Origin: Acidobacteriaceae bacterium
GTDB taxonomy: Bacteria > Acidobacteriota > Terriglobia > Bryobacterales > Bryobacteraceae
Direction: 5' to 3'
Length of the DNA: 64,000 nucleotides
NCBI GenBank assembly: GCA_019244055.1
Contig: JAFATG010000268.1
Span: 1-64,000, forward strand
Each line of letters starts with the position of its first letter. The first letter of the stretch is position 1. Both the position numbers and the translations under genes were made by a program. The notes below the pieces were generated by a model. The model was given only the letters and a program-made list of their open reading frames with translations. It was not told the origin of the DNA and searched no databases. Shown in pieces: positions 14,496 to 55,591 of this stretch.

Positions 14496-17051
14496 GTGCA
14501 AAACCTGCCCGGCATTTTTCGGTATACCTTGCGGCAATTCCGGTTGTCTCCAGTCTTTACGGCCGCCGCCATATTAACCCTCGCTTTGGGAATCGGCGGC
14601 ACCACAGCGATCTTCACTTTGATTCACGCTGTGATGCTGCGCTCCTTGCCGGTCTCGGATCCCGCACGTCTGTATCGGATCGGTGACGGCGACAATTGCT
14701 GTGTCGAAGGCGGCCCTCAAGACCGGTGGGGTATGTTCTCGTTCCCGCTATATGAGCGGCTGAAAGCGGAAGCACCAGAATTTGAAGAGTTAGCTGCCTT
14801 TCAGGCAGGCGGCGCAAGGGTAAGCGTGAGGCGCGAAGGCATCGATATAGCCGCCAAGCCTCTGCGCTCCGAATATGTCACGGGAAATTATTTTTCAACT
14901 CTTGGCGTAAGGGCATTTGCAGGGCGCGTGTTTACCCCGGAGGACGACAAGCGCTCCGTTCCGCCGGTTGCCGTAATCAGTCATCAGGCTTGGCAAGCGA
15001 CGTACGGTGCCAATCCCTCCGCCGTCGGTGGAACCTTCGTGATCGAAGGACATCCTTTCACAGTGATTGGAGTTGCGCCGCCGGGATTTTTCGGCGACAC
15101 ATTGCGTGCCGACCCGCCCGATATCTGGATTCCCGTACAGCAGGAGCCGATGACTGACGGTAGCGGCACGTTGCTCTCTCAGTCCGTGAGCGCGTGGTTG
15201 CGTGTCATCGGCCGCTTGCGTCCGGGGGCTTCGATTGCGGGCATTGCTCCGCGCCTAACCGGAGTCCTCCGACAATGGATGCAGCACGATTCCGGCTACC
15301 CCTCCAACTGGATGCCGGACGTGATCCGGATGTTCCCCAAACAGGTGATCAACGTGGTCCCCGCAGGCGCCGGGGTAGCGGAGATGAAGGAAGAGTACGG
15401 GCGAAGTCTCGAGATCCTGCTCGCCGTTTGCGGCCTCGTGCTGCTTATCGCTTGCGCCAATGTTGCGAACTTGCTCTTGGCTCGCGCTGTGTCCCGCCGC
15501 CCGCAAACTGCCGTGCGGCTCGCGGTAGGCGCGAGCAGCGGTCAAATCATTGGGCAGGCGCTCATCGAGAGTATTCTGCTGGCGCTCGCCGGTAGCATCG
15601 CCGGGCTCGCCGTTGCAACGGGAGCGGCGCGGTTGCTGCTGGCGCTCGCCTTCCGAAGCTCGCATTTCCTACCGATCTGCACCCGCCCGTCGCTCATCGT
15701 ACTCGCGTTCGCCTTTGGGCTGGCCTTGTTGACGGGGATCATCTTCGGCGCTGCCCCGGCGTGGTTTGCTACCCGAACGGATCCGGTAGAGGCGTTGCGG
15801 GGAGCGGGCCGTTCCACAAGCGATCATTCTTCGCTCGCGCGCAAGGCGTTGCTGGTTGTGCAGGCTGCCCTCTCCATTGTGTTGGTCGCTGGAGCGACCA
15901 TGCTGGCGCGAAGCCTCAACAACATTGAGCACCAGGACTTCGGCTACCAAGTTCCAAACCGAGTGGTGGTTTCTCTGAACCAGCCCCCCGCAACGTATAC
16001 TCTGCCGAAATTGCAAGCACTGTATCGCGAAATCGAGGCACGCCTCAATGCTTTGCCGGGAGTGCAAGGCTCAGGCCTTGCGTTGTATAACCCGCTCACG
16101 AATAACTGGGGCGAGCTGATCTACGTGGCAGGCCATCCTGCTCCCAAAATGAATGAGGAGGCGGGCGCGTCATGGGACCGGGTGAGCGCCAACTATCTCC
16201 AAAACTTTGGCGTGACGCTCCTTCGCGGGCGAACATTTACTACCGCCGATAATGAACGTACTGCGCCCGTAGCCATTGTCAACGAAGCGTTCATCAAACA
16301 CTTCTTCAAAAACGAAGACCCGTTAAACCGGCATTTCGGCCTGGATATGCCGGAGAATGCCAATACTTTCCGTATCGTGGGCATCGTGCGAGACGCCAAG
16401 TTCGCGGGATTCGGCTTGAGCAGGCCGGCGCGGCCAATGTTTTATGTGCCACTTGCGCAGAACGTCGATTATAAAGACGCAATGATGCAGCGGATTGAGT
16501 TGCAATCGCACTTTATCGGTGGAATGATGCTCGTGACAAATGCCTCGCCTGGAACTCTCGAACCTCTGCTCACTCGTGTGTTGGCGGGAGTAGACCCGAA
16601 CCTGACGATTGAGAGCGTGAGGACCATGCGTCAACACATAACTCTTACCTTCGATCAGGACCGCGCCGTGGCTGGTCTTGCCGGCCTGTTCGGGACGGTA
16701 GCGCTCCTTTTAGCGGCCGTTGGCCTTTACGGGGTCACTGCCTATACAGTTGCGCAACGAACGAACGAAATCGGCGTTCGGATGGCGGTTGGCGCTGATC
16801 ATACGAAGGTGGTTCGCCTCATACTCAGTGGAGCCTGCAAACGTGTATTGGTAGGGCTCGCACTGGGCCTACCGTTGGCTGTAGCGGCCGGACGCCTGAT
16901 CTCGTCTCAGTTATACGGGGTTTCCTTTTGGGATCCGCTCGCGCTGATCGTAGCGGCAAGTTCCCTCACGCTCTGCGCCTTTGCCGCGGCTTTAATTCCG
17001 GCCAGCCGCGCCGCATCCATCTCTCCGATGAATGCGCTCAGAACTGAATAG
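14496..17051 (+). CDS. ADOP-class long ABC permease (two MacB_PCD-FtsX modules)
   Basis: 851 aa, GTG start with an AAGAGG site a few bases upstream. TM1 at about residues 20-43 carries the LTLALGIGGTTAIF signature, followed by a periplasmic MacB_PCD domain (about 60-270), three TM helices around 300-430 (first with ILLAVCGLVLLIACANVANLLLARA), a second MacB_PCD (about 455-690) and a final FtsX module of three helices ending ISPMNALRTE. Both FtsX modules include the RL-LAVGA-type coupling helix (VRLAVGASSG, VRMAVGADH). No ATPase gene is adjacent, as is usual for these acidobacterial permeases, so its energy source is unclear. It lies 97 bp behind a broken paralogue, with no regulator nearby. 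Confidence 0.9.
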   Translation: MQNLPGIFRYTLRQFRLSPVFTAAAILTLALGIGGTTAIFTLIHAVMLRSLPVSDPARLYRIGDGDNCCVEGGPQDRWGMFSFPLYERLKAEAPEFEELAAFQAGGARVSVRREGIDIAAKPLRSEYVTGNYFSTLGVRAFAGRVFTPEDDKRSVPPVAVISHQAWQATYGANPSAVGGTFVIEGHPFTVIGVAPPGFFGDTLRADPPDIWIPVQQEPMTDGSGTLLSQSVSAWLRVIGRLRPGASIAGIAPRLTGVLRQWMQHDSGYPSNWMPDVIRMFPKQVINVVPAGAGVAEMKEEYGRSLEILLAVCGLVLLIACANVANLLLARAVSRRPQTAVRLAVGASSGQIIGQALIESILLALAGSIAGLAVATGAARLLLALAFRSSHFLPICTRPSLIVLAFAFGLALLTGIIFGAAPAWFATRTDPVEALRGAGRSTSDHSSLARKALLVVQAALSIVLVAGATMLARSLNNIEHQDFGYQVPNRVVVSLNQPPATYTLPKLQALYREIEARLNALPGVQGSGLALYNPLTNNWGELIYVAGHPAPKMNEEAGASWDRVSANYLQNFGVTLLRGRTFTTADNERTAPVAIVNEAFIKHFFKNEDPLNRHFGLDMPENANTFRIVGIVRDAKFAGFGLSRPARPMFYVPLAQNVDYKDAMMQRIELQSHFIGGMMLVTNASPGTLEPLLTRVLAGVDPNLTIESVRTMRQHITLTFDQDRAVAGLAGLFGTVALLLAAVGLYGVTAYTVAQRTNEIGVRMAVGADHTKVVRLILSGACKRVLVGLALGLPLAVAAGRLISSQLYGVSFWDPLALIVAASSLTLCAFAAALIPASRAASISPMNALRTE

Positions 17052-27530: not shown

Positions 27531-27686
27531 ATGTCCGAATTAGAAAAGCAGATCGCTAATCGCGTTGCCGACAACGCGGATCTAGAGGGTGCCCAGGATC
27601 TCATCGACGCGCACATCGATGCAGTGACTGGGGGTTACATCATCATCTACCACGTCAACTTTACAAAAGTTGTCGAACACTTCTAG
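27531..27686 (+). CDS. RiPP precursor peptide with double-glycine leader
   Basis: 51 aa, ATG preceded by AGAAAGG at 27515-27520. The leader (residues 1-35) is acidic and helical and ends LIDAHIDAVTGG, a classic double-glycine processing site for C39 peptidases. The predicted 16-residue core, Tyr36 to Phe51 (27636-27683), is YIIIYHVNFTKVVEHF: half aromatic or beta-branched, with no Cys and no Ser. Aromatic-x-x triplets (YII, YHV, HVN, FTK) match the pattern crosslinked by three-residue-cyclophane radical SAM enzymes; FTK recalls the W-x-K bridge in darobactin. A radical SAM gene begins 54 bases downstream and a C39 exporter follows. Product class is inferred; the cleavage site is well supported by the exporter. 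Confidence 0.75.
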   Translation: MSELEKQIANRVADNADLEGAQDLIDAHIDAVTGGYIIIYHVNFTKVVEHF

Positions 27687-27740
27687 GGCTGTGGATTCGC
27701 TGAATGATGCAGCGTTTCTATGTCCTAGCTCTAGCCGGAA

Positions 27741-28937
27741 ATGCTGGATCATTCCGCGATTTCCCCAATTGGGAATGCAATGCGGAAAGATCTAAACATC
27801 GTTTTCAAAATTAGCGAGCGTTGCAATCTGAAGTGCGACTATTGCTATTTCTTTTTCGGAGGCGATGAAACATGGAAAAAACACCCGCCACTCGTCTCAC
27901 GTGAGGTTGTGCAAGACCTTGGCGCTTTTGTGGCGCGGGCCGCGCGAGACGAACAACTCGAACTTATCCACCTCATCTTCCACGGCGGCGAGCCTCTGCT
28001 GATGAGCAAGCCTCGATTTACCGAAATGTGCGAGACCCTCCGCGGATATGAAAACGGTTTTCAATTCAGTTTTGCCCTGCAAACCAACGGTGTCTTAGTA
28101 GACGAAGGCTGGATCGATATTTTTGAGCGCTACCGTGTCACGGCAGGAGTGTCGTTGGACGGGCCGCCCGTTGTAAACGACTTGCATCGCCTGGATTTCA
28201 AGGGTCGTAGTTCCTATGACGCAACCGTAGCTGGCCTGCGGCTGCTGCAACAGGCGGCCACACAAGGAAGAGTGAGCGCGCCCGGGTTGCTTTGCGTAAT
28301 AAATCCTTTCGCCGACGGCGCGAAGGTTTACCGCCATTTCGTCGACGATCTAGGCGTAAAGCATATGAGCTTTCTAACGCCCGATTACACTTGGGACTCG
28401 ATCGTGGGCGAGCCAGTGATTCGCGGTGTCGAGCGGTTTCTCCTGGCAGCTTTGCGCGCCTGGTTGGCAGACAAAAACCCCAAAATTCAAGTTCGCGTCT
28501 TCTCGGAATTGCTTGCGGCGATGGTTGATCAGCGTGCAATGGAGCTTGTCCAAACCTATCGCGACGATTATCGCAACATCATCTCGGTGTCCTCGAATGG
28601 CGACTTGGGACCGGAAGACACGCTGCGCACCCTCGACCCGCGCTTTGCCTCGATGGGTTTAAATGTCGAAAGCAACGACTTGCGCGATCTTTTTGAGTCG
28701 GGCGCCTGGCGCGAACAGGCCGATGCGGTGACAATAAGGCCGGAGAAATGCAAAACTTGCGACTGGTGGAAGCTCTGTAAAGCTGGACGTCCGGTTAATC
28801 GCTACTCCAGAGCAGCGGGGTTCTCGAATCATTCTCTCTACTGCTCCGGTTTGAAAGACCTCTATGCGGAGATCGGGGCATTTCTCGTCCGCAACGGGAC
28901 ACCTCTCGCCGAGCTTGCTCTCCGACTCGCCAGTTAA
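27741..28937 (+). CDS. Radical SAM/SPASM-type RiPP maturase (FxsB/XyeB-like)
   Basis: 398 aa; a second in-frame ATG at 27780 would remove 13 residues. The radical SAM cluster motif is CNLKCDYCYFFFGG (Cys28, Cys32, Cys35). LIFHGGEPLL (residues 78-87) and ALQTNGVLVDEGW are typical of peptide-modifying members. The C-terminus has a reduced SPASM-like domain with four cysteines (Cys337, Cys340, Cys346, Cys368); the Gly-rich segment usual after the third is KAGRPVNRYS. The SVSSNGDLGPEDTLRTLDP region lacks the SPASM entry Cys, as in FxsB/XyeB/GrrM enzymes that form C-C or C-O crosslinks between aromatic side chains and a residue two positions on. It probably acts on the 51-residue peptide just upstream. 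Confidence 0.85.
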   Translation: MLDHSAISPIGNAMRKDLNIVFKISERCNLKCDYCYFFFGGDETWKKHPPLVSREVVQDLGAFVARAARDEQLELIHLIFHGGEPLLMSKPRFTEMCETLRGYENGFQFSFALQTNGVLVDEGWIDIFERYRVTAGVSLDGPPVVNDLHRLDFKGRSSYDATVAGLRLLQQAATQGRVSAPGLLCVINPFADGAKVYRHFVDDLGVKHMSFLTPDYTWDSIVGEPVIRGVERFLLAALRAWLADKNPKIQVRVFSELLAAMVDQRAMELVQTYRDDYRNIISVSSNGDLGPEDTLRTLDPRFASMGLNVESNDLRDLFESGAWREQADAVTIRPEKCKTCDWWKLCKAGRPVNRYSRAAGFSNHSLYCSGLKDLYAEIGAFLVRNGTPLAELALRLAS

Positions 28938-28946
28938 GACAATACC

Positions 28947-29165
28947 ATGCAGCCCCCCAACAGTTCAGAGCACAATAGAATCGAAAACAAGGCAACGCTC
29001 CGCTATAGTCATCAGTCCTTCCGCCCCGAAGCAGTGGAAGCATACGCGACCCGGCAGGCTGGTGAGCCATGGGATGCGAGACACCGGCTAGAGAGTTGGA
29101 TGATCGCCGTGTTGACAGTGGTAGCCGCTGTAGCACTTGCTTTCGTCTTCGCGGGAGGTCAGTAA
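28947..29165 (+). CDS. HlyD-like stub: truncated membrane-fusion-protein N-terminus
   Basis: 72 aa, nine bases after the maturase and three before the exporter. Residues about 22-70 (SFRPEAVEAYATRQAGEP, then RLESWMIAVLTVVAAVALAFVFAGG) match the cytoplasmic N-terminus and single TM anchor of HlyD-type adaptors for bacteriocin exporters, which begin FRPEA...R...G. Those proteins normally continue for another 330-380 residues with a periplasmic hairpin; here the frame stops (TAA) exactly where the periplasmic part should begin. No ribosome site is obvious. It may be a gene remnant or a deliberately small one-TM partner of the exporter. No other adaptor gene is in the window. Confidence 0.6.
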   Translation: MQPPNSSEHNRIENKATLRYSHQSFRPEAVEAYATRQAGEPWDARHRLESWMIAVLTVVAAVALAFVFAGGQ

Positions 29166-29168
29166 ATC

Positions 29169-31271
29169 ATGGCCGCCGCACCCCGTCCTCTTGCAGCAGT
29201 CCGGCCTCCGCACGTTCCTGTCATTCTTCAGGGCGAGACCAGCGAGTGTGCGCTAGCCAGTCTCGCCATGATCGCTGCCGCTTGCGGCCTTAAAGCGGAT
29301 TTGGCGGCTTTTCGGGCAAGAGTGGCGATTACTCCTCGTGGCGTCAATCTGCGCACTCTGATGAACCTCGCCGCCGGCATCGGCCTTGCGCCGCGGCCGG
29401 TTCGAATTGGCCTCCAGCGTATTGGAGATCTGAAGATGCCCGCCATTCTGCACTGGAACATGGATCATTTCGTGGTGCTGGAACGGGTTCGGGGCAATGT
29501 CGCTACCATCGTGGACCCGGGGCGTGGCCGCCTCAAAATGACTCTCGATGCGATGTCTCCGCATTTCACTGGTATCGCCATAGAGTTCACGCCCACCGCC
29601 AGCTTTCAGCCCGGCACAATACGCCTCTCCCGCAGTTTTCGCCGTGTTTGGCTTGACGACCGCCGCTTGCGTTCTGCCGCCCTTTCCACGCTTTGGCTGA
29701 CCCTGTTGCTCCAGCTCGCTATCATTGCCATGCCCTTTGCGTATCGCAACATCATTGACCGCGCGGGCGGATGGCTAGCGGATCCGCGTGTCCTCCGGAT
29801 CGCCTGTGGCATCGGCCTCATGATGATGGTTCAGGCGGGCTCGGCCTGGACCAGAGGATTGGTGATTACGCGTCTAGGCGGAGTTTTTGTCCATCGCGTT
29901 TCCACCCACATCGTCGCGCGGCTCTTTTCGCTGCCGGTCGCATTTTTCCGGCGTCAGATGCTCGGCGATGTTTTATCGCGCGTTCGTTCTGTGGACACAA
30001 TCCGCCGCTTTGTGACCGATCAGGCCGCGCCCATGGTCATTGACCTTCTGGTCGGCTCAGTAACCGCCGGCTTGATGATGGTTTTCAGCCCACATCTGGC
30101 TCTGATAGTTGTCATCGGATTGACGATCGAGACAACCGTCCGCGCGTTCGGATTACGGAAGCAGCGGCAATTGTCCGAAGATCTCCTCGAAGCGGAAGGA
30201 AAGGAAATGTCGCGGCTGCTGGAATCCATGCGCGCGATTCAGGCCATCAAGCTGGCGGGCAGGGAGGCCCAGCGCTTTGCCGTTTGGGAAAACGAATTCG
30301 TTCGTGTGCTCAACGCTAACGCCCGCTTGAGCCGCCGCCGCAACGGAGTTGGCGCCATCACTTCGGCTGCCGGCGCTTTGGAATTAGCCGCTGTTTTAGC
30401 GGTTGGAGTTCTGGGAGTTGGTTTCGCGCCGGTCACCACGGGAGCGCTATTCGGCTTTCTTGCCTACCGCGCTGTCTTTCGTGAACGAGTCTCTTCCGTT
30501 ATGGAAAGCGTTTGGTCGATGCAACTGGCAACGGTCCATGTTCGGCGGCTTGACGATCTCATGTTGACCGAGCCCGAATCGCAAGGCGGTGCGCTTACCC
30601 AGATCAAGGGCCCTGGCTGCCTCAAGTTGGAGAACATCAGCTTTCGCTACGCCCCCACTGAGCCGCTCGTCCTTGACGATGTATCACTAGAATGTCCCGC
30701 GGGTGCATGCGTGGCAATTGTCGGTCCGTCCGGCAGTGGCAAGTCTACGCTGGTCAAGCTGATCCTGGGCATTGAAAAGCCTCAGCGGGGTAGTATCAAG
30801 CTCGATGGTATACCGATTGACGAGGTCAATCGCCAGGTGTGGCGCGAGCGCTTCGGGACGGTCATGCAGGACGACACGCTACTGGCGGGATCGATTAACG
30901 AAAACATAGCGTTTTTCGATCCTCGAATTGATGTGGATAAAGTCCGCGCTGCAGCCACGGACGCTGCCATACACGAGGAAATCCAAGCCATGCCCATGGA
31001 TTATGGAACACTCATCGGCGACATGGGGGTGCAAGTTTCTGGCGGACAACGCCAGCGTCTTCTGATCGCCCGCGCACTCTACCGCGGGCCTGGGCTCATT
31101 CTCTTCGACGAGGGTACGGCCAATTTGGACGCGATCTCAGAGCAAAAGATCTCTGAGGTACTCGCCGCTCTCTCTCTGACTCGCATCATCGTCGCGCATC
31201 GATCGCATCTTCTGACGGTTGCCGACATCGTCTATGAAGTCCGTGACGGAAAGGTATCCCGCATTCGTTAA
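29169..31271 (+). CDS. Peptidase-containing ABC exporter (C39 peptidase-TMD-NBD)
   Basis: 700 aa. The C39 domain (residues 1-140) keeps the full catalytic set: Gln21, Cys27 in QGETSECALASLAMIAAACG, His100 in NMDHFVVLERV and Asp116 in IVDPGRG. Six TM helices follow at about 165-450. The ATPase has Walker A GPSGSGKSTLVKLILG, signature VSGGQRQRLLIARAL, Walker B LILFDEGTANLD and the H-loop IIVAHRSHLL. It should cut the leader after the double glycine of the 51-residue precursor and export the modified core across the inner membrane. The next gene starts after 15 bases, so the operon continues into a MacB-type permease. Confidence 0.9.
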   Translation: MAAAPRPLAAVRPPHVPVILQGETSECALASLAMIAAACGLKADLAAFRARVAITPRGVNLRTLMNLAAGIGLAPRPVRIGLQRIGDLKMPAILHWNMDHFVVLERVRGNVATIVDPGRGRLKMTLDAMSPHFTGIAIEFTPTASFQPGTIRLSRSFRRVWLDDRRLRSAALSTLWLTLLLQLAIIAMPFAYRNIIDRAGGWLADPRVLRIACGIGLMMMVQAGSAWTRGLVITRLGGVFVHRVSTHIVARLFSLPVAFFRRQMLGDVLSRVRSVDTIRRFVTDQAAPMVIDLLVGSVTAGLMMVFSPHLALIVVIGLTIETTVRAFGLRKQRQLSEDLLEAEGKEMSRLLESMRAIQAIKLAGREAQRFAVWENEFVRVLNANARLSRRRNGVGAITSAAGALELAAVLAVGVLGVGFAPVTTGALFGFLAYRAVFRERVSSVMESVWSMQLATVHVRRLDDLMLTEPESQGGALTQIKGPGCLKLENISFRYAPTEPLVLDDVSLECPAGACVAIVGPSGSGKSTLVKLILGIEKPQRGSIKLDGIPIDEVNRQVWRERFGTVMQDDTLLAGSINENIAFFDPRIDVDKVRAAATDAAIHEEIQAMPMDYGTLIGDMGVQVSGGQRQRLLIARALYRGPGLILFDEGTANLDAISEQKISEVLAALSLTRIIVAHRSHLLTVADIVYEVRDGKVSRIR

Positions 31272-31286
31272 CGGAAAGGCCTGATC

Positions 31287-33773
31287 ATGCAGAGCGTCCT
31301 AAAAAATCTTCGCTACGCCGCGCGCCAGTTGCGCTGTTCGCCGGAATTCACCGCCCTCGCGCTTATCACTCTAGCCCTTGGCATAGGAGCTAATACCGCG
31401 ATGTTCACGGTCGTGGAGAGCGTGCTCTTGCGGCCTCTTCCCTATGGCGATCCAGATCGGCTCGTCCATATCGGCGGATCAGATATCGCGTCTGCCGGCG
31501 CCGTTTCGTGGCTCGACTATCTCGACGTTCGCAATGAGTCGCATGCTCTCTCGAGTGTGGCTGCATACTCGACCGACATGGCCGTTGTGCAGGATAAAGG
31601 CGCTGCCGTGAGTGTCGTCAGCTCCGAAGTAACTTCCAATCTCTTTGGCATCCTTGGCCGGCAGCCGCTGAAAGGACGTACGTTTACTGAGGAAGAAGCA
31701 CAAGCCAATGGCCCACAAGCCATACTGATTTCGCAGGGGCTCTGGCGCGAGGTCCTTCGCAGCGACCCGGCGGTTTTGGGCCGGACTCTCCGCGTAAATG
31801 GACACGACCGCACCATCGTTGGAGTGATGCCTCGGGGCTTCCATTTTCCCGAAGCGGCAGGCAAGGACATCGAGAAAGGGTTGTGGCTTCCCATGCAGCC
31901 AACCTCTGAGATGCTGCAGGAACGTGGTGCCGATTTTTTCACGATCCTCGGAAGACGAGCTCCCGGCGTACTCCTGCCGCAAGTGCAAGCCGAAATGAGC
32001 CTGATCGCCAAACGCATCCGTGACACCGATCGGCGCGCTGATCGGAAATTGGGGTTCCGTGCCCAGTCGTATCAGGAGACGGTTACCGGCCCCGTGCGTG
32101 AGGTGTTCCTGGCGTTGGCTGCCGCGCTGGGAATCGTGTTGTTAGTCGCCTGCGCCAACATCGCAAATCTATTGATCGCCCGTGGTCTCGGCCGTGAGCA
32201 CGAGTTTGCCGTGCGCGCAGCCCTCGGCGCCGGACGCTGGCGCCTTGTCGGCCAGATGATCGCCGAAGCCGGTGTGCTGACCGCGCTCGGCTGCAGTCTC
32301 GGTGTTCTGCTGGCTTATTGGCTTGTGGGGGCAGTCCATCGCTTGCCGCCGGATACCATTCCGCGCTCTCAAGCGATTGAGGTCCGCTGGACCGTCATGA
32401 TATTCCTTGTGGCGCTTGCTATCATCACAACTGTTTTATCGGCACTGCTCCCTGCATTGCTCGTGGCCAAAGTGAATGCACGAGCAGTTCTGCGCACCGG
32501 TTCTGGGAGTTTAGGTAAGAGATGTCTCAGCACGAGAACCTGCGTTTGGCTGGCGGGGGCCGAAGTCGCTCTGTCGGCGCTATTACTGGTTGCGGCGGGA
32601 CTCTTGTTCCGGACACTTTGGGATCTGGAGCACGCCCGACTCGGCTTCGATACTTCCCATGTCACTTCATTCGTTGCGATGCCCGCGGATGCATCCGGTT
32701 TTGGGAATATGACGGTGAGCGCGGCAGGCGGCACACCGGTCTCGGTCGCGACAACTCTCTATTACCCGCTGCTTGAGGCGTTGCGTCACGTCCCCGGCTT
32801 CCGAGGCGCGGCCTTGGTGACAGCGCCCCCATTTTCCGGATTCGCCTTGCAAACCAACTTTCGCGCTATCGGGTTGCCGGATGAGACCCAAACGGGGTTC
32901 GCGGCAAGACTGACCGCCATAAGTGGAGGGTTTGAAGAGTTAATGCGGACGCCTATTGTGCGCGGCCGGAGTATTACTGAACAAGACACGGCCGACGCAC
33001 GCTTCGTAGCCTTGATTAATGCGACGCTGGCAAAAAAGTATTTCGCTGGTAGAGATCCGCTCGGCCAAAGACTGGATCTTGGAGGCGAAGCCACGGGCAT
33101 GTTGAAGTCCTACACCATAATCGGCATCGTCGGCGATCAGGTCGAGACGCGTGCTTCGCAGGCCATAGAACCGTTACTCATGCTGTCCTACCAGCAAGTC
33201 CCGCCCACGTCGCTGTACTATCCAGCGTTGCTCAGGACCGCAGTGCATTTTGTTGTGAGAACGAGAGGTAATCTCGCCGCTGCACCGGCCGCGCGCGCAA
33301 TATTCCACCGCAATGCCCCGGATCTCGCCTTGGACAAATTTCAAACTATGCAAGAGGCGGTGGATCAGAGTAACTTCGGTCCCCGTATTGGCCTCTACCT
33401 CATTGCCGCGTTTGCCGGGCTAGCTGTCTTAACTGTGATTGTGGGGCTGTACGGCGTACTATCTCAGGTGGCCGCCCAGCGTTCGAAAGAATTCGGAATC
33501 CGAATGGCTTTGGGCGCGACGCGCCAGAGTATAGTCCGATCGGTGTTGTTGTGGGGATCACGGATTGTCGCTATAGGGCTGTCCGTTGGAATTGTTCTTT
33601 CCTTTTCGATGGGTCGGCTGATAAAAAGCTTTTTGTATGGAGTGAAGCCGCTGGATGTGAGTACGTACGGTTTGGTCGTCATCGCCCTCTTCACGATTGG
33701 CATAGGCGCGGCTCTGATTCCGGCCTGGCGTGCGGCCTCATTCGAGCCGCTCAACGCTCTACGGGACGAATAG
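31287..33773 (+). CDS. ADOP-class long ABC permease linked to the RiPP operon
   Basis: 828 aa, ATG with GGAAAGG upstream. The N-terminal TM segment has ITLALGIGANTAMFTVVESVLLRPLP split over residues 25-50; two MacB_PCD periplasmic domains (about 50-260 and 430-660) alternate with FtsX modules that include LVACANIANLLIARGLGRE and IRMALGATRQ, and the end is FEPLNALRDE. It starts 15 bases after the C39 exporter on the same strand, so it is probably co-transcribed. A role in self-immunity or in moving the peptide onward through the envelope is possible because the HlyD adaptor is truncated, but this is inference. No ATPase of its own is adjacent. Confidence 0.9.
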   Translation: MQSVLKNLRYAARQLRCSPEFTALALITLALGIGANTAMFTVVESVLLRPLPYGDPDRLVHIGGSDIASAGAVSWLDYLDVRNESHALSSVAAYSTDMAVVQDKGAAVSVVSSEVTSNLFGILGRQPLKGRTFTEEEAQANGPQAILISQGLWREVLRSDPAVLGRTLRVNGHDRTIVGVMPRGFHFPEAAGKDIEKGLWLPMQPTSEMLQERGADFFTILGRRAPGVLLPQVQAEMSLIAKRIRDTDRRADRKLGFRAQSYQETVTGPVREVFLALAAALGIVLLVACANIANLLIARGLGREHEFAVRAALGAGRWRLVGQMIAEAGVLTALGCSLGVLLAYWLVGAVHRLPPDTIPRSQAIEVRWTVMIFLVALAIITTVLSALLPALLVAKVNARAVLRTGSGSLGKRCLSTRTCVWLAGAEVALSALLLVAAGLLFRTLWDLEHARLGFDTSHVTSFVAMPADASGFGNMTVSAAGGTPVSVATTLYYPLLEALRHVPGFRGAALVTAPPFSGFALQTNFRAIGLPDETQTGFAARLTAISGGFEELMRTPIVRGRSITEQDTADARFVALINATLAKKYFAGRDPLGQRLDLGGEATGMLKSYTIIGIVGDQVETRASQAIEPLLMLSYQQVPPTSLYYPALLRTAVHFVVRTRGNLAAAPAARAIFHRNAPDLALDKFQTMQEAVDQSNFGPRIGLYLIAAFAGLAVLTVIVGLYGVLSQVAAQRSKEFGIRMALGATRQSIVRSVLLWGSRIVAIGLSVGIVLSFSMGRLIKSFLYGVKPLDVSTYGLVVIALFTIGIGAALIPAWRAASFEPLNALRDE

Positions 33774-33802: not shown

Positions 33803-33824
33803 AGCGGCAGCCGAAGCTGCCGCT
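33803..33824 (-). terminator. Rho-independent terminator after rpoC
   Basis: A perfect 9-bp stem (AGCGGCAGC/GCTGCCGCT) with a four-base loop. On the minus strand the loop is TTCG closed by C-G, the very stable cUUCGg tetraloop, followed at once by TCTTTTTG. On the plus strand a T7 run starts eight bases after the stem, so it may also stop transcription from the ADOP permease side. Confidence 0.9.
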
Positions 33825-47676: not shown

Positions 47677-50130
47677 TTACTCGTGGCGCAGTGCCTGGAT
47701 CGGATCAACCCGACTCGCGCGCTGTGCCGGCAGCCACACCGCAAGTAGAGCTACTGCGCTCAGTAGAATTGGGACAAGAACAAACGTAAGTGGATCCAAT
47801 GCTTCGACGCCAAATAGAAGCCCGGCGATGAAGCGGGTCAAGCCCAAGGCCGCGGCGATTCCGATACCCATTCCAGTAAGAGCCAGGCGCATACCCTGAA
47901 ACACGACCATCTTCCGCACTTCACCCGATCTGGCTCCTATCGCCATGCGAATTCCCATCTCATGCGTACGCTGCTGGACAGAGTAAGCCATTAATCCGTA
48001 AATCCCAATTGAGGCAAGCAGCAGGGCGGACGCGCCGAAAATCGTCATCAGGAGCATGTTGAACCGCTGGCGAGCAGTGGATTGTGACGTGATCTCCTGC
48101 ATGGAATGAAGGGGAGGAACCGGCTCCTGCGTCGCTTCACGAAGCTCGTTCAGAATTGCGGAATTGAGCGAAGCCGATCGGGTGCGAGTGCGAATGACCC
48201 AGGCCACCGTCCGGCCCGAGTTGCGAGTATCGCTAAGTTGCGCGCCCGGGACAAAGACGGTTGGTTGCGGAGGTTCATCGAGCCCGTTATCGTGAACATC
48301 ACCTACGATCCCGACGATCTGGCGCGCGGGCTCGTCGAAATTCGGAAGACCTTTTCCGATGAACAGGCGCTCCTGAAGCGGAGCACGGCCCAGAGGATCG
48401 TGCGGCCAGAGCTCGTGAGCCATCGCTTCGTTGATGATGGCGACGCCGGGAGCGCCGAGGCGATCGGTGTCGCTGAACAGGCGTCCGCGAACGAGAGGAA
48501 CTTTCAGCACATTGAAATAGCTGGACGAGACCACCATCCAGCGCGCGGAACCGTGCGACGGGCCTGTCAGCGGCCGGCCCGCAATGACAATGGGAAGGCT
48601 ATTGAAGCCGCCTTCAAGCGGCAATAGGCGCGTGAAGCCCGCGCTTCCCACTCCGGGCAACGCATCAAGCCGGCGGAATACGTCGCGAACGATTGCATCG
48701 ACGCCGGTCCTTCTCGCGGTTCGTGGATCCAGCGATGTATGCGTCGTTATTACGTTACTCGGATCGAAGCCTGGATTCACCGAATGCAAAGCGAGCAACG
48801 TCCGGATGAGCAGAGCTGCTCCTATCAACAAAACGAGCGCGAGGCTCATTTCAGCCACAACAAACATGGAACGAAGCGACACGAGCGAGCGCCCAAGGCG
48901 CGTTTCGAGATGTGCTTTCAACGCGGTGTTCAAGTCGGCACGCAAGGCCTGGAGTGCCGGGATCAGACCGAAGACTAGTCCCGTCACCAGGGCCAGCAGC
49001 ATGGTGAAGGCGACAACGCGCCAGTCGAGCGTAACGTTTGCGCCCTTGATCCCGACACGCGGGAGGTCGGAAGGAGCAAGAGCCAGGAGCGCGTAGATAC
49101 CGGCCCTACCGAGTGCAAGTCCGAGCACCCCACTCGCCAGGGCGAGCAAAACGCTCTCCGTGAGTAGCTGCCGGACGATTCGCCCGCTAGAAGCGCCTAC
49201 CGCGAAGCGAATGGCGATCTCTCGATGCCGTGCCGACGCCCTGATAAGCAAGAGATTTGCAACGTTAACGCAAGCGACCAGCAAAACCAGGCTGACGGCA
49301 CCGGAGAGAAACAGAAGAGACGAGCGGACGTGCTTCACGACAACGTCGCGCATCAGCTCAACACTGAAGACGTCTCGCCGGCTGGTTGAGAGCGAGTCGG
49401 GAAATTTGCGGTAAAACTCGCGAGTGGTGAGCTGAAGATGCGCGTTTGCCATTGCCAGCCTGATGCCGGGCTTGAGGCGGCCGACAGCCTGGAAATAGTG
49501 TCCCTGGTTCGTGCTATTGGGATCGATGGCAAATGGAGCCCAAATATCAGGCGGTTCGAGAGTTTCCGTCTGAATGCCGGGTGCCGTGATGCCGACAACT
49601 TGATAGGAGGCGCCGCTTAGTGAAACGGTTCTGCCGAGAATCCGGGAATTGCCGCCGAAAGCTCGCTTCCAGAACGCGTCGCTCAGAATTACGGCGTTGC
49701 TTCCGTTCGGTTGTTCCTCTTCGGCGGTGAATCCACGGCCGTAGGCGATGGGCAGACCGAAGAGCCGGAAGTAATCGGTGGTGACGAAGAGCGCAACAGC
49801 ACGTTGAGGCTGGTCGACATTGGTCAAATTCAGCGAGCCAGCATAATAGCCGGACACGTCCTGAAACAAACTGGTCTGCTCACGCCATAGATTGAATTTG
49901 ATTTCGGAGGCAGCGAAGCTGGAACCCTCCCTGCTGGTGGACATGAACGCAATCACGCGATCGGGCTGCGGAGCGCGCAATGGCTTCAGTAAGACTGCAT
50001 TTACAACTGAAAAGATTGCTGTATTTGCTCCAATGCCAAGCGCCAGGACGGCCATCGCCGTGACTGTGAAGGTCGGCACGCGCAGAGACGCCCGGAGCAA
50101 ATAGTTCAGATCCTTGAGAAAGGATTCCAT
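47677..50130 (-). CDS. ADOP-class long ABC permease of the GntR/ABC operon
   Basis: 817 aa. N-terminus MESFLKDLNYLLRASLRVPT, then TM1 with MAVLALGIGANTAIFSVVNA, two MacB_PCD/FtsX units (second TM set begins LFLSGAVSLVLLVACVNVAN; conserved IRFAVGASSG and IRMAIGARSG coupling helices) and the end VDPIQALRHE. It starts only five bases after the stop of the ABC-2-like permease, so the two share an mRNA. Close neighbours encode an ATPase and a GntR regulator. Whether that ATPase energises this permease as well is open. Confidence 0.9.
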   Translation of the reverse strand: MESFLKDLNYLLRASLRVPTFTVTAMAVLALGIGANTAIFSVVNAVLLKPLRAPQPDRVIAFMSTSREGSSFAASEIKFNLWREQTSLFQDVSGYYAGSLNLTNVDQPQRAVALFVTTDYFRLFGLPIAYGRGFTAEEEQPNGSNAVILSDAFWKRAFGGNSRILGRTVSLSGASYQVVGITAPGIQTETLEPPDIWAPFAIDPNSTNQGHYFQAVGRLKPGIRLAMANAHLQLTTREFYRKFPDSLSTSRRDVFSVELMRDVVVKHVRSSLLFLSGAVSLVLLVACVNVANLLLIRASARHREIAIRFAVGASSGRIVRQLLTESVLLALASGVLGLALGRAGIYALLALAPSDLPRVGIKGANVTLDWRVVAFTMLLALVTGLVFGLIPALQALRADLNTALKAHLETRLGRSLVSLRSMFVVAEMSLALVLLIGAALLIRTLLALHSVNPGFDPSNVITTHTSLDPRTARRTGVDAIVRDVFRRLDALPGVGSAGFTRLLPLEGGFNSLPIVIAGRPLTGPSHGSARWMVVSSSYFNVLKVPLVRGRLFSDTDRLGAPGVAIINEAMAHELWPHDPLGRAPLQERLFIGKGLPNFDEPARQIVGIVGDVHDNGLDEPPQPTVFVPGAQLSDTRNSGRTVAWVIRTRTRSASLNSAILNELREATQEPVPPLHSMQEITSQSTARQRFNMLLMTIFGASALLLASIGIYGLMAYSVQQRTHEMGIRMAIGARSGEVRKMVVFQGMRLALTGMGIGIAAALGLTRFIAGLLFGVEALDPLTFVLVPILLSAVALLAVWLPAQRASRVDPIQALRHE

Positions 50131-52996: not shown

Positions 52997-55591
52997 CTAC
53001 TCCTCCCGGAGCACGCGCATGGCATCTACGTGAGAGGCGCGCAAGGCGGGAAGCAACGAAGCCGAAGCCGCGACGATGAGGACAATCGCTGCCACGCCGG
53101 AATAAGTCAGGAAATCCGAGCGAGAGATGCCATATAGCATTCCTGCCAGCAAGCGCGTTAGCGCGGCGGCGAGTAACAGTCCGGCGATGCAACCGGCGAC
53201 CGATATTCCGACTCCGCGCACGAGGAACTTCTTTAGAATCTGGTTGGGCAAGGCGCCGAGCGCGATGCGGAGACCTGTCTCGCGATTACGCACGGTTACG
53301 AAATAACTGAGCGTTCCATAGATTCCGACGCAGGCGAGAGAAATTGCCGTCAAAGCGAAGAGGGTGAGCAGCAGAGTTCGGAGCCGGTTCTCGGCCAGTG
53401 AATCGTAGAGGCGCTGTTCCAGCGGCGTGATGTCGAAGACGGAGCGTGAGGGTAAGATCTTCTGAATCGCACGGCGGATGGTGGAAGCCATTGCTGCGGG
53501 ATCGCCGGCTGTACGTACGAGGTAAAAGGGATCCGGGTTGCCACCTTCGACACAACGGTAGACAGTTGGGACCGGCGCCTGATTCAGCGAATCTTCACGG
53601 TCATCGGATGATATGCCGACAATTTCTGGCGGAGCGTGCACATAGAAATCGTGTGAAACGTTAAAGTGATGGCCTAGCGGCGAAAGATTCGCCAGGTAGG
53701 TGTTCACGAAACTACGATTGACGACAGCGGTTTCTGTATTTGTGTTCTGGCAGGAGTGTCCGGCGAGCATCGGAATCTGCACCGTCTCGAAGTAGCCGGC
53801 AGAAACGAATCTCATATCGGCAACGACCTTGCGATCGGGAAGCGAGGGGGTATCGACGATCGTCAACTCGTCCGGATACTTAAATGACGCACCAGGCACG
53901 AATATGGAGGTTGCAGCATTCTTCACGCCCGGAACAGCGCGGAGAGCTTCTAGGGTTGTTTGGATACGCTGATTCAACTTCTTCATATCTGCCGTTTCGC
54001 CGTAACTTCCGGTGATGTGGAAAGTCAGCACATGCGCGGCGTCGAAACCCGGCGACACGCGCCCTAGTTCCTGAAAACTGCGGAGAAGGAGGCCCGCGCC
54101 AATGAGCAGCGTGACCGCCAGCGCCACTTGCACTCCGACGAGAGCCCACTGGCCACTGAGACGTGCTGACACCTGTGTACGGCTGTTGTTTGCAAGGGAC
54201 GTTGATAAGGAACGACGCGAGGCGTGAATCGCGGGCGCGAAGCCGAAGAGGAGCGTCGCGCCGATCGCGCAGGCGAGCGTGTAGAGTACGATGCGCCAAT
54301 CGAGCGAGATTTCCTCGACACGCGGCAGACTTTTGGCGAGCAGACGGAACGCGTGGGAAGCCGCAGCCGCTACGGCAAGCCCAATGCCCGCGCCGATTGT
54401 CGCGAGAGCGAAGGACTCAGTCAGAAGCTGCGCTACGATCGATCGCCGAGAGGCACCGAGAGAATAGCGGATCGAAATTTCGCGCTCGCGCTGCGTGGTT
54501 CGAGCGAGCAGCAGTGCGGCGATATTGCTGCAGGCGATCAGGAGCAGTAAAGAAACCGAGCCAAGAAGGATTAGCAGGGACCGGCGCACACCCGCCACAG
54601 TGGTCTCTTTGAGCGGTTGAATTTCAACGGTCAGGTCCTTGTCGGTTTTGGGAAATTCGCGGCCAAGCTGGGCCTGCACCGCGGCGAGATTGGCGCGCGC
54701 CTGCTCGATCGTTACGCCTGGCTTGAGCCTGCCAATCGTGGTGTACCAGGTCGAATTGCGATCGTGGGTGTACGGCGCATCAATGGGAACTGGAGACCAG
54801 ACATCGACTTCGCGATCCGGAAAGAGGAACGAAGCCGGCATGATGCCGACGATGGGATAGGAGTACTTGCCCATTCGGAGCGTCTTACCAACGGCACCGG
54901 GATCTGCGTGAAAACGCCGCTCCCAAAGGCGATTGCTAATGAGCACGGCATTGGGACCGCCAAAGTGCAACTCCTCGGGGCGGAAGTCCCGGCCGATTTC
55001 GGGCGCAACGCCCCACACCTGAAGAAAACGTGGCGCAACCCAGGCGATCGTGAGCTTTTCGGGCATAGATCCCGAAGTCTCGCTGGCGTCTTCGGTGTAA
55101 TAGCCGGTGATGGCATGAAACGTGGAGTTCGAACGATTCCATTCCTCGAGGCGGACGGGCGCGGTGACGCTTTCAGGGGTCTTCCGTTTGGGGTTGTACT
55201 GGTGCAACAGCATCAAGCCGTTGGCATCGGGAAACGGAAGCGGCTTGAGGAGAATTGCATCGACCGCTGAAAAAACAGCGCTGTTCGCTCCAATAGCGAG
55301 AGCGATGGTAAGAATGATTGCAAGCGAGAAGGTCGGAGATTTGCGAATGAAGCGGAAGGCGCTCTTCAGATTCGCGAGGGTAGTTTCGAGGGTGGCGATG
55401 CGATGCACGTCGCGGCATTCCTCCTTGATCTGCTCATTGCCGCCGAATTCGAGAGTCGCTTCCCGGCGAGCCTGTTCCGGATCGATTCCCGCGGCGATCT
55501 TCTGGTCCATGAGCTCTTCGAAATGAAAGTGCAGCTCGTCATCCAGTTGCTTCTCATTCGCGCGAAGAACGAACAACTTGCGCCATTTCAC
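52997..55591 (-). CDS. ADOP-class long ABC permease with N-terminal prefix domain
   Basis: 864 aa, GTG start with AGGAG upstream. The first about 75 residues (LDDELHFHFEELMDQKIAAG, DPEQARREATLEFGG, EECRDVHR) are the permease-prefix helical domain found in PadR-linked ADOP permeases. TM1 has LTIALAIGANSAVFSAVDA; two MacB_PCD/FtsX modules follow (IRYSLGASRR and LRIALGALPN coupling helices) and the end is VDAMRVLREE. It follows the PadR gene by 10 bases and is therefore controlled by it. Probably senses or exports an envelope-active compound, but the substrate is unknown. Confidence 0.9.
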   Translation of the reverse strand: MKWRKLFVLRANEKQLDDELHFHFEELMDQKIAAGIDPEQARREATLEFGGNEQIKEECRDVHRIATLETTLANLKSAFRFIRKSPTFSLAIILTIALAIGANSAVFSAVDAILLKPLPFPDANGLMLLHQYNPKRKTPESVTAPVRLEEWNRSNSTFHAITGYYTEDASETSGSMPEKLTIAWVAPRFLQVWGVAPEIGRDFRPEELHFGGPNAVLISNRLWERRFHADPGAVGKTLRMGKYSYPIVGIMPASFLFPDREVDVWSPVPIDAPYTHDRNSTWYTTIGRLKPGVTIEQARANLAAVQAQLGREFPKTDKDLTVEIQPLKETTVAGVRRSLLILLGSVSLLLLIACSNIAALLLARTTQREREISIRYSLGASRRSIVAQLLTESFALATIGAGIGLAVAAAASHAFRLLAKSLPRVEEISLDWRIVLYTLACAIGATLLFGFAPAIHASRRSLSTSLANNSRTQVSARLSGQWALVGVQVALAVTLLIGAGLLLRSFQELGRVSPGFDAAHVLTFHITGSYGETADMKKLNQRIQTTLEALRAVPGVKNAATSIFVPGASFKYPDELTIVDTPSLPDRKVVADMRFVSAGYFETVQIPMLAGHSCQNTNTETAVVNRSFVNTYLANLSPLGHHFNVSHDFYVHAPPEIVGISSDDREDSLNQAPVPTVYRCVEGGNPDPFYLVRTAGDPAAMASTIRRAIQKILPSRSVFDITPLEQRLYDSLAENRLRTLLLTLFALTAISLACVGIYGTLSYFVTVRNRETGLRIALGALPNQILKKFLVRGVGISVAGCIAGLLLAAALTRLLAGMLYGISRSDFLTYSGVAAIVLIVAASASLLPALRASHVDAMRVLREE

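Follow-up and report, generated by a model that had tools for sequence, protein, structure and literature searches.

A five-gene operon at positions 27,531 to 33,773 of the window (the whole 64,000-nucleotide stretch of DNA analysed here) is best read as a Xye-type triceptide operon that would make, crosslink and export a short peptide, with MacB-type handling of the product in the periplasm; we give this reading a probability of about 0.82. The locus is a genuine RiPP operon and of a kind already known; it forms a new branch of that kind and no new RiPP class. Its genes and RNA features are the following:

27531..27686, + strand: precursor gene, 51 aa, under purifying selection
27696..27762, + strand: RNA hairpin lying just 3' of the precursor gene, z -3.1
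27780..28937, + strand (open frame from 27741): maturase gene, recognised from NCBIfam, trees and alignments
28947..29165, + strand: HlyD-like stub gene, 72 aa, conserved in six loci
29169..31271, + strand: C39 exporter gene, with Pfam C39, ABC_membrane and ABC_tran
31287..33773, + strand: ADOP gene, TIGR03434, co-occurring with the maturase
33803..33824, strand not assigned: GC-rich hairpin in the gap where the ADOP and rpoC genes converge, probably a bidirectional terminator, which faces rpoC

As a sequence-only reading of this DNA had proposed, all five ORFs are present on the + strand and tightly packed, with gaps of 3 to 15 bp downstream of the maturase. The ATG at 27780, where the matching residue is the first one in all close homologues, is the probable start of the maturase, in preference to 27741. 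In each of the five genes, stub and ADOP among them, pN/pS is 0.15-0.43 relative to the window sequence, with synonymous sites near saturation and few amino-acid differences. The interpretation of the locus as a RiPP pathway is supported by a small double-glycine ORF beside the maturase in every relative, upstream of it in five loci and just downstream in one (L011); the sequence-only reading had named the lack of such an ORF in relatives as a refutation, and on this count it stands. The same reading called the RiPP probably undescribed, which overstates its novelty, since the enzyme groups with XyeB and the operon matches the known Xye layout. We found no account of the locus in the literature searched, which did not reach the main triceptide survey. 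Phage records contain no relative of the operon, and viral contigs yielded only weak fragments of 25-27%. On the rpoC side, eight congeners lack the operon and also lack the DUF72 and acylase genes beside rpoC, in a flank that is variable anyway.

In a scan of 84,980 species genomes the maturase had five close relatives, two of them encoded in one Bryobacterales MAG (L009 and L013), two in other acidobacterial MAGs (L010 and L011) and one in the cultivated myxobacterium Polyangium fumosum DSM 14668 (L012). With the window these make up the six loci compared here, four of which, the window included, lie within a single genus and cannot be counted as independent. Each of the five carries the stub besides the maturase and the leader of the precursor, and the C39 gene is seen in all four whose contig is long enough to show it. 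The maturase is found in 3 of 17 congeners and, in the phylum of Polyangium, in a single match among 331 genomes. The operon occurs in two forms, in one of which (L010, L012 and L013) a gene for an aKG-HExxH enzyme of TIGR04267 lies between maturase and stub:

L010 10163-11350: HExxH gene
L012 10229-11395: HExxH gene
L013 1990-3168: HExxH gene

The other form (the window, L009 and L011) is without the HExxH gene at that place and carries an orthologous ADOP 3' of the exporter. The MAG containing L009 and L013 has one operon of each form, the contig of L013 stopping short of the ADOP position. HExxH enzymes of the TIGR04267 family beta-hydroxylate residues in cyclophane peptides (PMC12636437, on ChlH). 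The whole genome to which the window belongs has no enzyme of this family, so the product of the window's operon should be without such a hydroxyl. Further 3-CyFE-like maturases (L004-L008), more distant at 28-35% identity and on other tree branches, are sparsely distributed in Acidobacteriota.

On sequence grounds the maturase is a three-residue-cyclophane (triceptide) enzyme of the XyeB clade. Its three best NCBIfam models, XyeB (343 bits), YhhB (255 bits) and FxsB (227 bits), all describe cyclophane-forming enzymes, and of the solved enzymes its best match is ChlB, a cyclophane synthase (154 bits). The XyeB score lies below the equivalog cut-off of 450 bits (TIGR04496), though a maximum-likelihood tree of 24 enzymes groups the maturase with XyeB and with enzymes from Paracoccus and Pseudoalteromonas (support 98/99). 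Family scores, the ChlB match and the tree place it among the 3-CyFE radical SAM/SPASM enzymes, and the earlier radical SAM/SPASM assignment is confirmed by the CxxxCxxC motif and four further cysteines of the SPASM part, all invariant in alignment with XyeB. Identity to characterised or annotated relatives is 25-38%. An AlphaFold model built from five sequences reached a mean pLDDT of 49 and was too poor for a fold search. A darobactin-type (daropeptide) assignment was rejected, the DarE model giving 98 bits against a cut-off of 650.

The precursor of 51 residues consists of the double-glycine leader MSELEKQIANRVADNADLEGAQDLIDAHIDAVTGG and the core YIIIYHVNFTKVVEHF, and its description as such by the sequence-only reading held, the leader being kept in all six loci. 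Judging from this leader beside the maturase in six of six loci, in Acidobacteriota and in Polyangium fumosum, the precursor is no chance ORF. In the relatives the 35-aa leader is 66-91% identical to that of the window, and in the five genomes each operon has it once (E 1e-17 to 3e-8), with no further occurrence at a meaningful E-value. In the core of the window the motifs HVN and FTK are directly adjacent; the relatives have HFN-YVE, HIQ-YTD, HIQ-FTE, HVQ-FKQ and FSR-YID, the core from Polyangium fumosum being GFSLHVQFKQQQK. A tandem aromatic-x-[NQRKDE]-aromatic-x-polar motif is present in all six cores, recognised post hoc and matched by shuffled cores at 1-29% each, and HxN or HxQ stands first in five of them. 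Each core thus has the aromatic-x-x motifs for i to i+2 crosslinks that mark triceptides. The proposal that the core is unlike known cores was too strong, as the same kind of motif is seen in XyeA (FAR-WDK). The precursor itself has no match to the XyeA family in NCBIfam, and its pairwise comparison with one XyeA gave only E 0.004. Cysteine is absent from all six cores, which rules out thioether RiPPs (sactipeptide, ranthipeptide or lanthipeptide).

The Xye operon of Xenorhabdus bovienii (NZ_FO818638) comprises xyeA, xyeB, xyeC, an HlyD gene and a C39 exporter gene. The window has the same gene order without xyeC, with a stub instead of the full-length HlyD and with the ADOP added. Both have a double-glycine leader, a tandem aromatic-x-polar core and a maturase of the same clade, with identities of 38% to XyeB and 33% to XyeE, so that of the genes that define a Xye system (double-glycine precursor, radical SAM, HlyD-type and C39) the window has each, the HlyD-type one as a stub only. 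The core motifs differ, FAR-WDK in XyeA standing against HVN-FTK, with His first, in the window. XyeC is aspartyl-protease-like and is not similar to the relatives' HExxH gene; its place in the six loci is taken by the HExxH enzyme or by nothing. YhhB, HaaB and FxsB, triceptide maturases that crosslink His and Tyr, are likewise cyclophane formers and can use His as the aromatic partner, but they belong to another tree branch and to other operons, and a C39 exporter is absent in the loci seen. The ChlB/ChlH system and loci from Rhizobium and Rhodococcus have an HExxH gene of TIGR04267 behind the radical SAM gene, as do L010, L012 and L013, and differ in this from the window and its genome. The darobactin cluster DarABCDE resembles the window in combining a radical SAM-crosslinked peptide with a MacB-type permease, whereas its maturase is of another family and it has no C39 exporter. 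What is new in the present loci is the His-first motif, the HExxH gene in three of them, the conserved stub, the hairpin behind the precursor gene and the ADOP orthologue confined to the congeners with the maturase.

In each of the six loci the precursor gene is followed by a long RNA hairpin, with z from -2.1 to -6.3 against shuffles. In the relatives it is found at these positions:

L009 8786-8880: hairpin
L010 8912-8967: hairpin
L011 3062-3119: hairpin
L012 8878-8932: hairpin
L013 876-938: hairpin

In alignment its arms are 92% paired, and the covariation is suggestive only, as 32 of 500 shuffles reach its score. No Rfam family matches the hairpin and its arm sequence is no genome-wide repeat. 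The hairpin travels with the precursor, because in L011, where the precursor sits behind the maturase, it is found there too. It is probably a partial terminator (attenuator) or a stabiliser of the mRNA 3' end, and its likely role would be to keep the level of precursor above that of the enzyme.

The pathway would start with precursor made in excess, helped by this hairpin. Links from i to i+2 are known between Trp, Phe, Tyr or His and the beta-carbons of Asn, Arg, Asp, Ser and Ala, and links of His, Tyr, Phe and Trp to a beta-carbon have been established for HaaB, YhhB, YxdB and XncB (PMC11002830). Together with the enzyme family and the core motifs, these links make a bicyclic triceptide the most likely product. 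The maturase would form one ring through a bond between the aromatic carbon of His41 and the beta-carbon of Asn43, and another through a bond between Phe44 and the beta-carbon of Lys46, so that the core would carry two strained rings next to each other and be about 4 Da lighter, at a predicted 2017.046 Da against 2021.077 Da before modification. For the core from P. fumosum, two links predict 1569.805 Da, to which hydroxylation by the HExxH enzyme would add 15.995 Da.

The product most likely acts as a bacteriocin against neighbours, as far as can be inferred. Peptides with double-glycine leaders exported by C39 transporters include signals, and each operon has one precursor with no immunity gene recognised, so it is possible, if doubtful, that the product is instead a signalling peptide or other communication molecule with no antibacterial action; however, the operon is without a regulator or two-component system, the patchy spread in congeners and in the Polyangium phylum fits antagonism better, and so do the fast-changing cores, which would be less expected of a housekeeping signal.

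Export of the presumed bacteriocin would involve the remaining three genes. The stub is a single-pass membrane protein with the motif FRPEAVEAY, conserved with a length of 72-80 aa throughout the six loci, in each of which its hydrophobic helix ends 1-3 residues before the stop. This conservation upholds the gene that had been named an HlyD stub; the name itself is less secure, a match of 11 residues, with FRPEA, to the beginning of XyeD, the one transmembrane helix and the gene position being no more than suggestive of a link to HlyD. The stub matches no Pfam or NCBIfam family, and the periplasmic coiled-coil and lipoyl domains of an HlyD-type adaptor are missing from it in six of six loci. 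In the C39 exporter, alignment with XyeE bears out the intact triad claimed before, Cys, His and Asp being invariant. This protein would cleave after Gly-Gly and pass the core into the periplasm, with the stub as an accessory. If the stub is a reduced HlyD, the usual route to the outer membrane is closed to the exporter: without the periplasmic part there would be no tunnel to it.

The last gene encodes a duplicated MacB-type permease that scores 733 bits against the TIGR03434 cut-off of 622 and belongs to the ADOP family. A gap of 15 bp separates it from the C39 gene. ADOPs lack an ATPase domain, and the operon holds no ATPase or adaptor partner for this one. Adjacency alone means little, because ADOP genes number at least 67 in this genome, with four of them in the window, that of the operon included. 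The other three, and the MacB-type genes of Polyangium, are these:

14517-17048, + strand: ADOP gene
47680-50118, - strand: ADOP gene
53000-55375, - strand: ADOP gene
L012 4094-8413, - strand: genes for a MacA-like adaptor, an ATPase and two permeases of MacB type, running divergently to the precursor gene

Orthologues 65-67% identical to the operon's ADOP occupy the same position in L009 and L011. Among the 17 congeners the orthologue is found in exactly three, the same three that have the maturase, and the best ADOP match in the other 14 is 44%. Two random sets of 3 out of 17 would coincide in 1 of 680 cases, for a count whose three members belong to a single genus and in which several of the MAGs are incomplete. 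The flanks of the operon differ, with rpoC and DUF72 in the window and other genes in L009. That the triceptide operon is real and the ADOP a bystander, adjoining it by chance and carried along, would agree with the abundance of ADOP genes and with L010 and Polyangium, which have no ADOP at the position 3' of the exporter; we regard it as unlikely, since the neighbouring genes of three loci are orthologues, since nothing comparable is matched among the 14 congeners that lack the maturase, since the ADOP lies so close to the C39 gene, and since Polyangium has its own MacA, MacB-type and ATPase genes beside the precursor.

We favour the view that the ADOP works with the triceptide operon. Within about 9 kb on each side, L010 has no MacB-type neighbour, so that such a partner is common but neither universal nor essential. 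On a Gloeobacter plasmid (L033) a cyclophane-type maturase is flanked by adaptor, ATPase and ABC permease genes, and linkage to MacA/MacB-like genes is thus not confined to darobactin. The linkage to an ADOP, earlier thought to be new, has gained support, because the orthologue occurs only with the maturase; its novelty lies in an ATPase-less ADOP at that place, MacB-type permeases being already known beside cyclophane radical SAM genes (DarBCD; the Gloeobacter plasmid). MacB pumps take periplasmic substrates, and a second pump across the inner membrane may be needed (PMC5985334), with which a two-stage export path fits. Once in the periplasm, the peptide would be handled by a protein of MacB type, which is the ADOP in the window and a MacAB-like pump in Polyangium, either to be exported further or for self-protection; for an ATPase-less ADOP, self-protection is as possible as export handling. 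We found no paper naming a function for ADOPs.

It is improbable that the maturase makes another crosslink or modification and no three-residue cyclophanes, as the sub-cut-off XyeB score, the His-first motif and the low identity to characterised or annotated relatives might suggest, given that its closest families are all cyclophane formers, that the tandem i to i+2 geometry of the motif matches and that no core contains Cys.

These loci extend Xye-type triceptides to soil Acidobacteriota and to the cultivated P. fumosum, in which the chemistry is testable, with His-to-Asn/Gln links predicted beside Phe/Tyr-to-acidic/basic links. Only tentatively can they be taken as a triceptide subfamily of their own, with the usual tripartite secretion path replaced by a reduced HlyD of one helix and an ATPase-less ADOP dedicated to the system, and with the peptide handed over in the periplasm. 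If true, this would provide the first concrete function for ADOP permeases, of which Acidobacteria have dozens. Given these very large families, the operon offers a defined setting for asking what ADOPs do.
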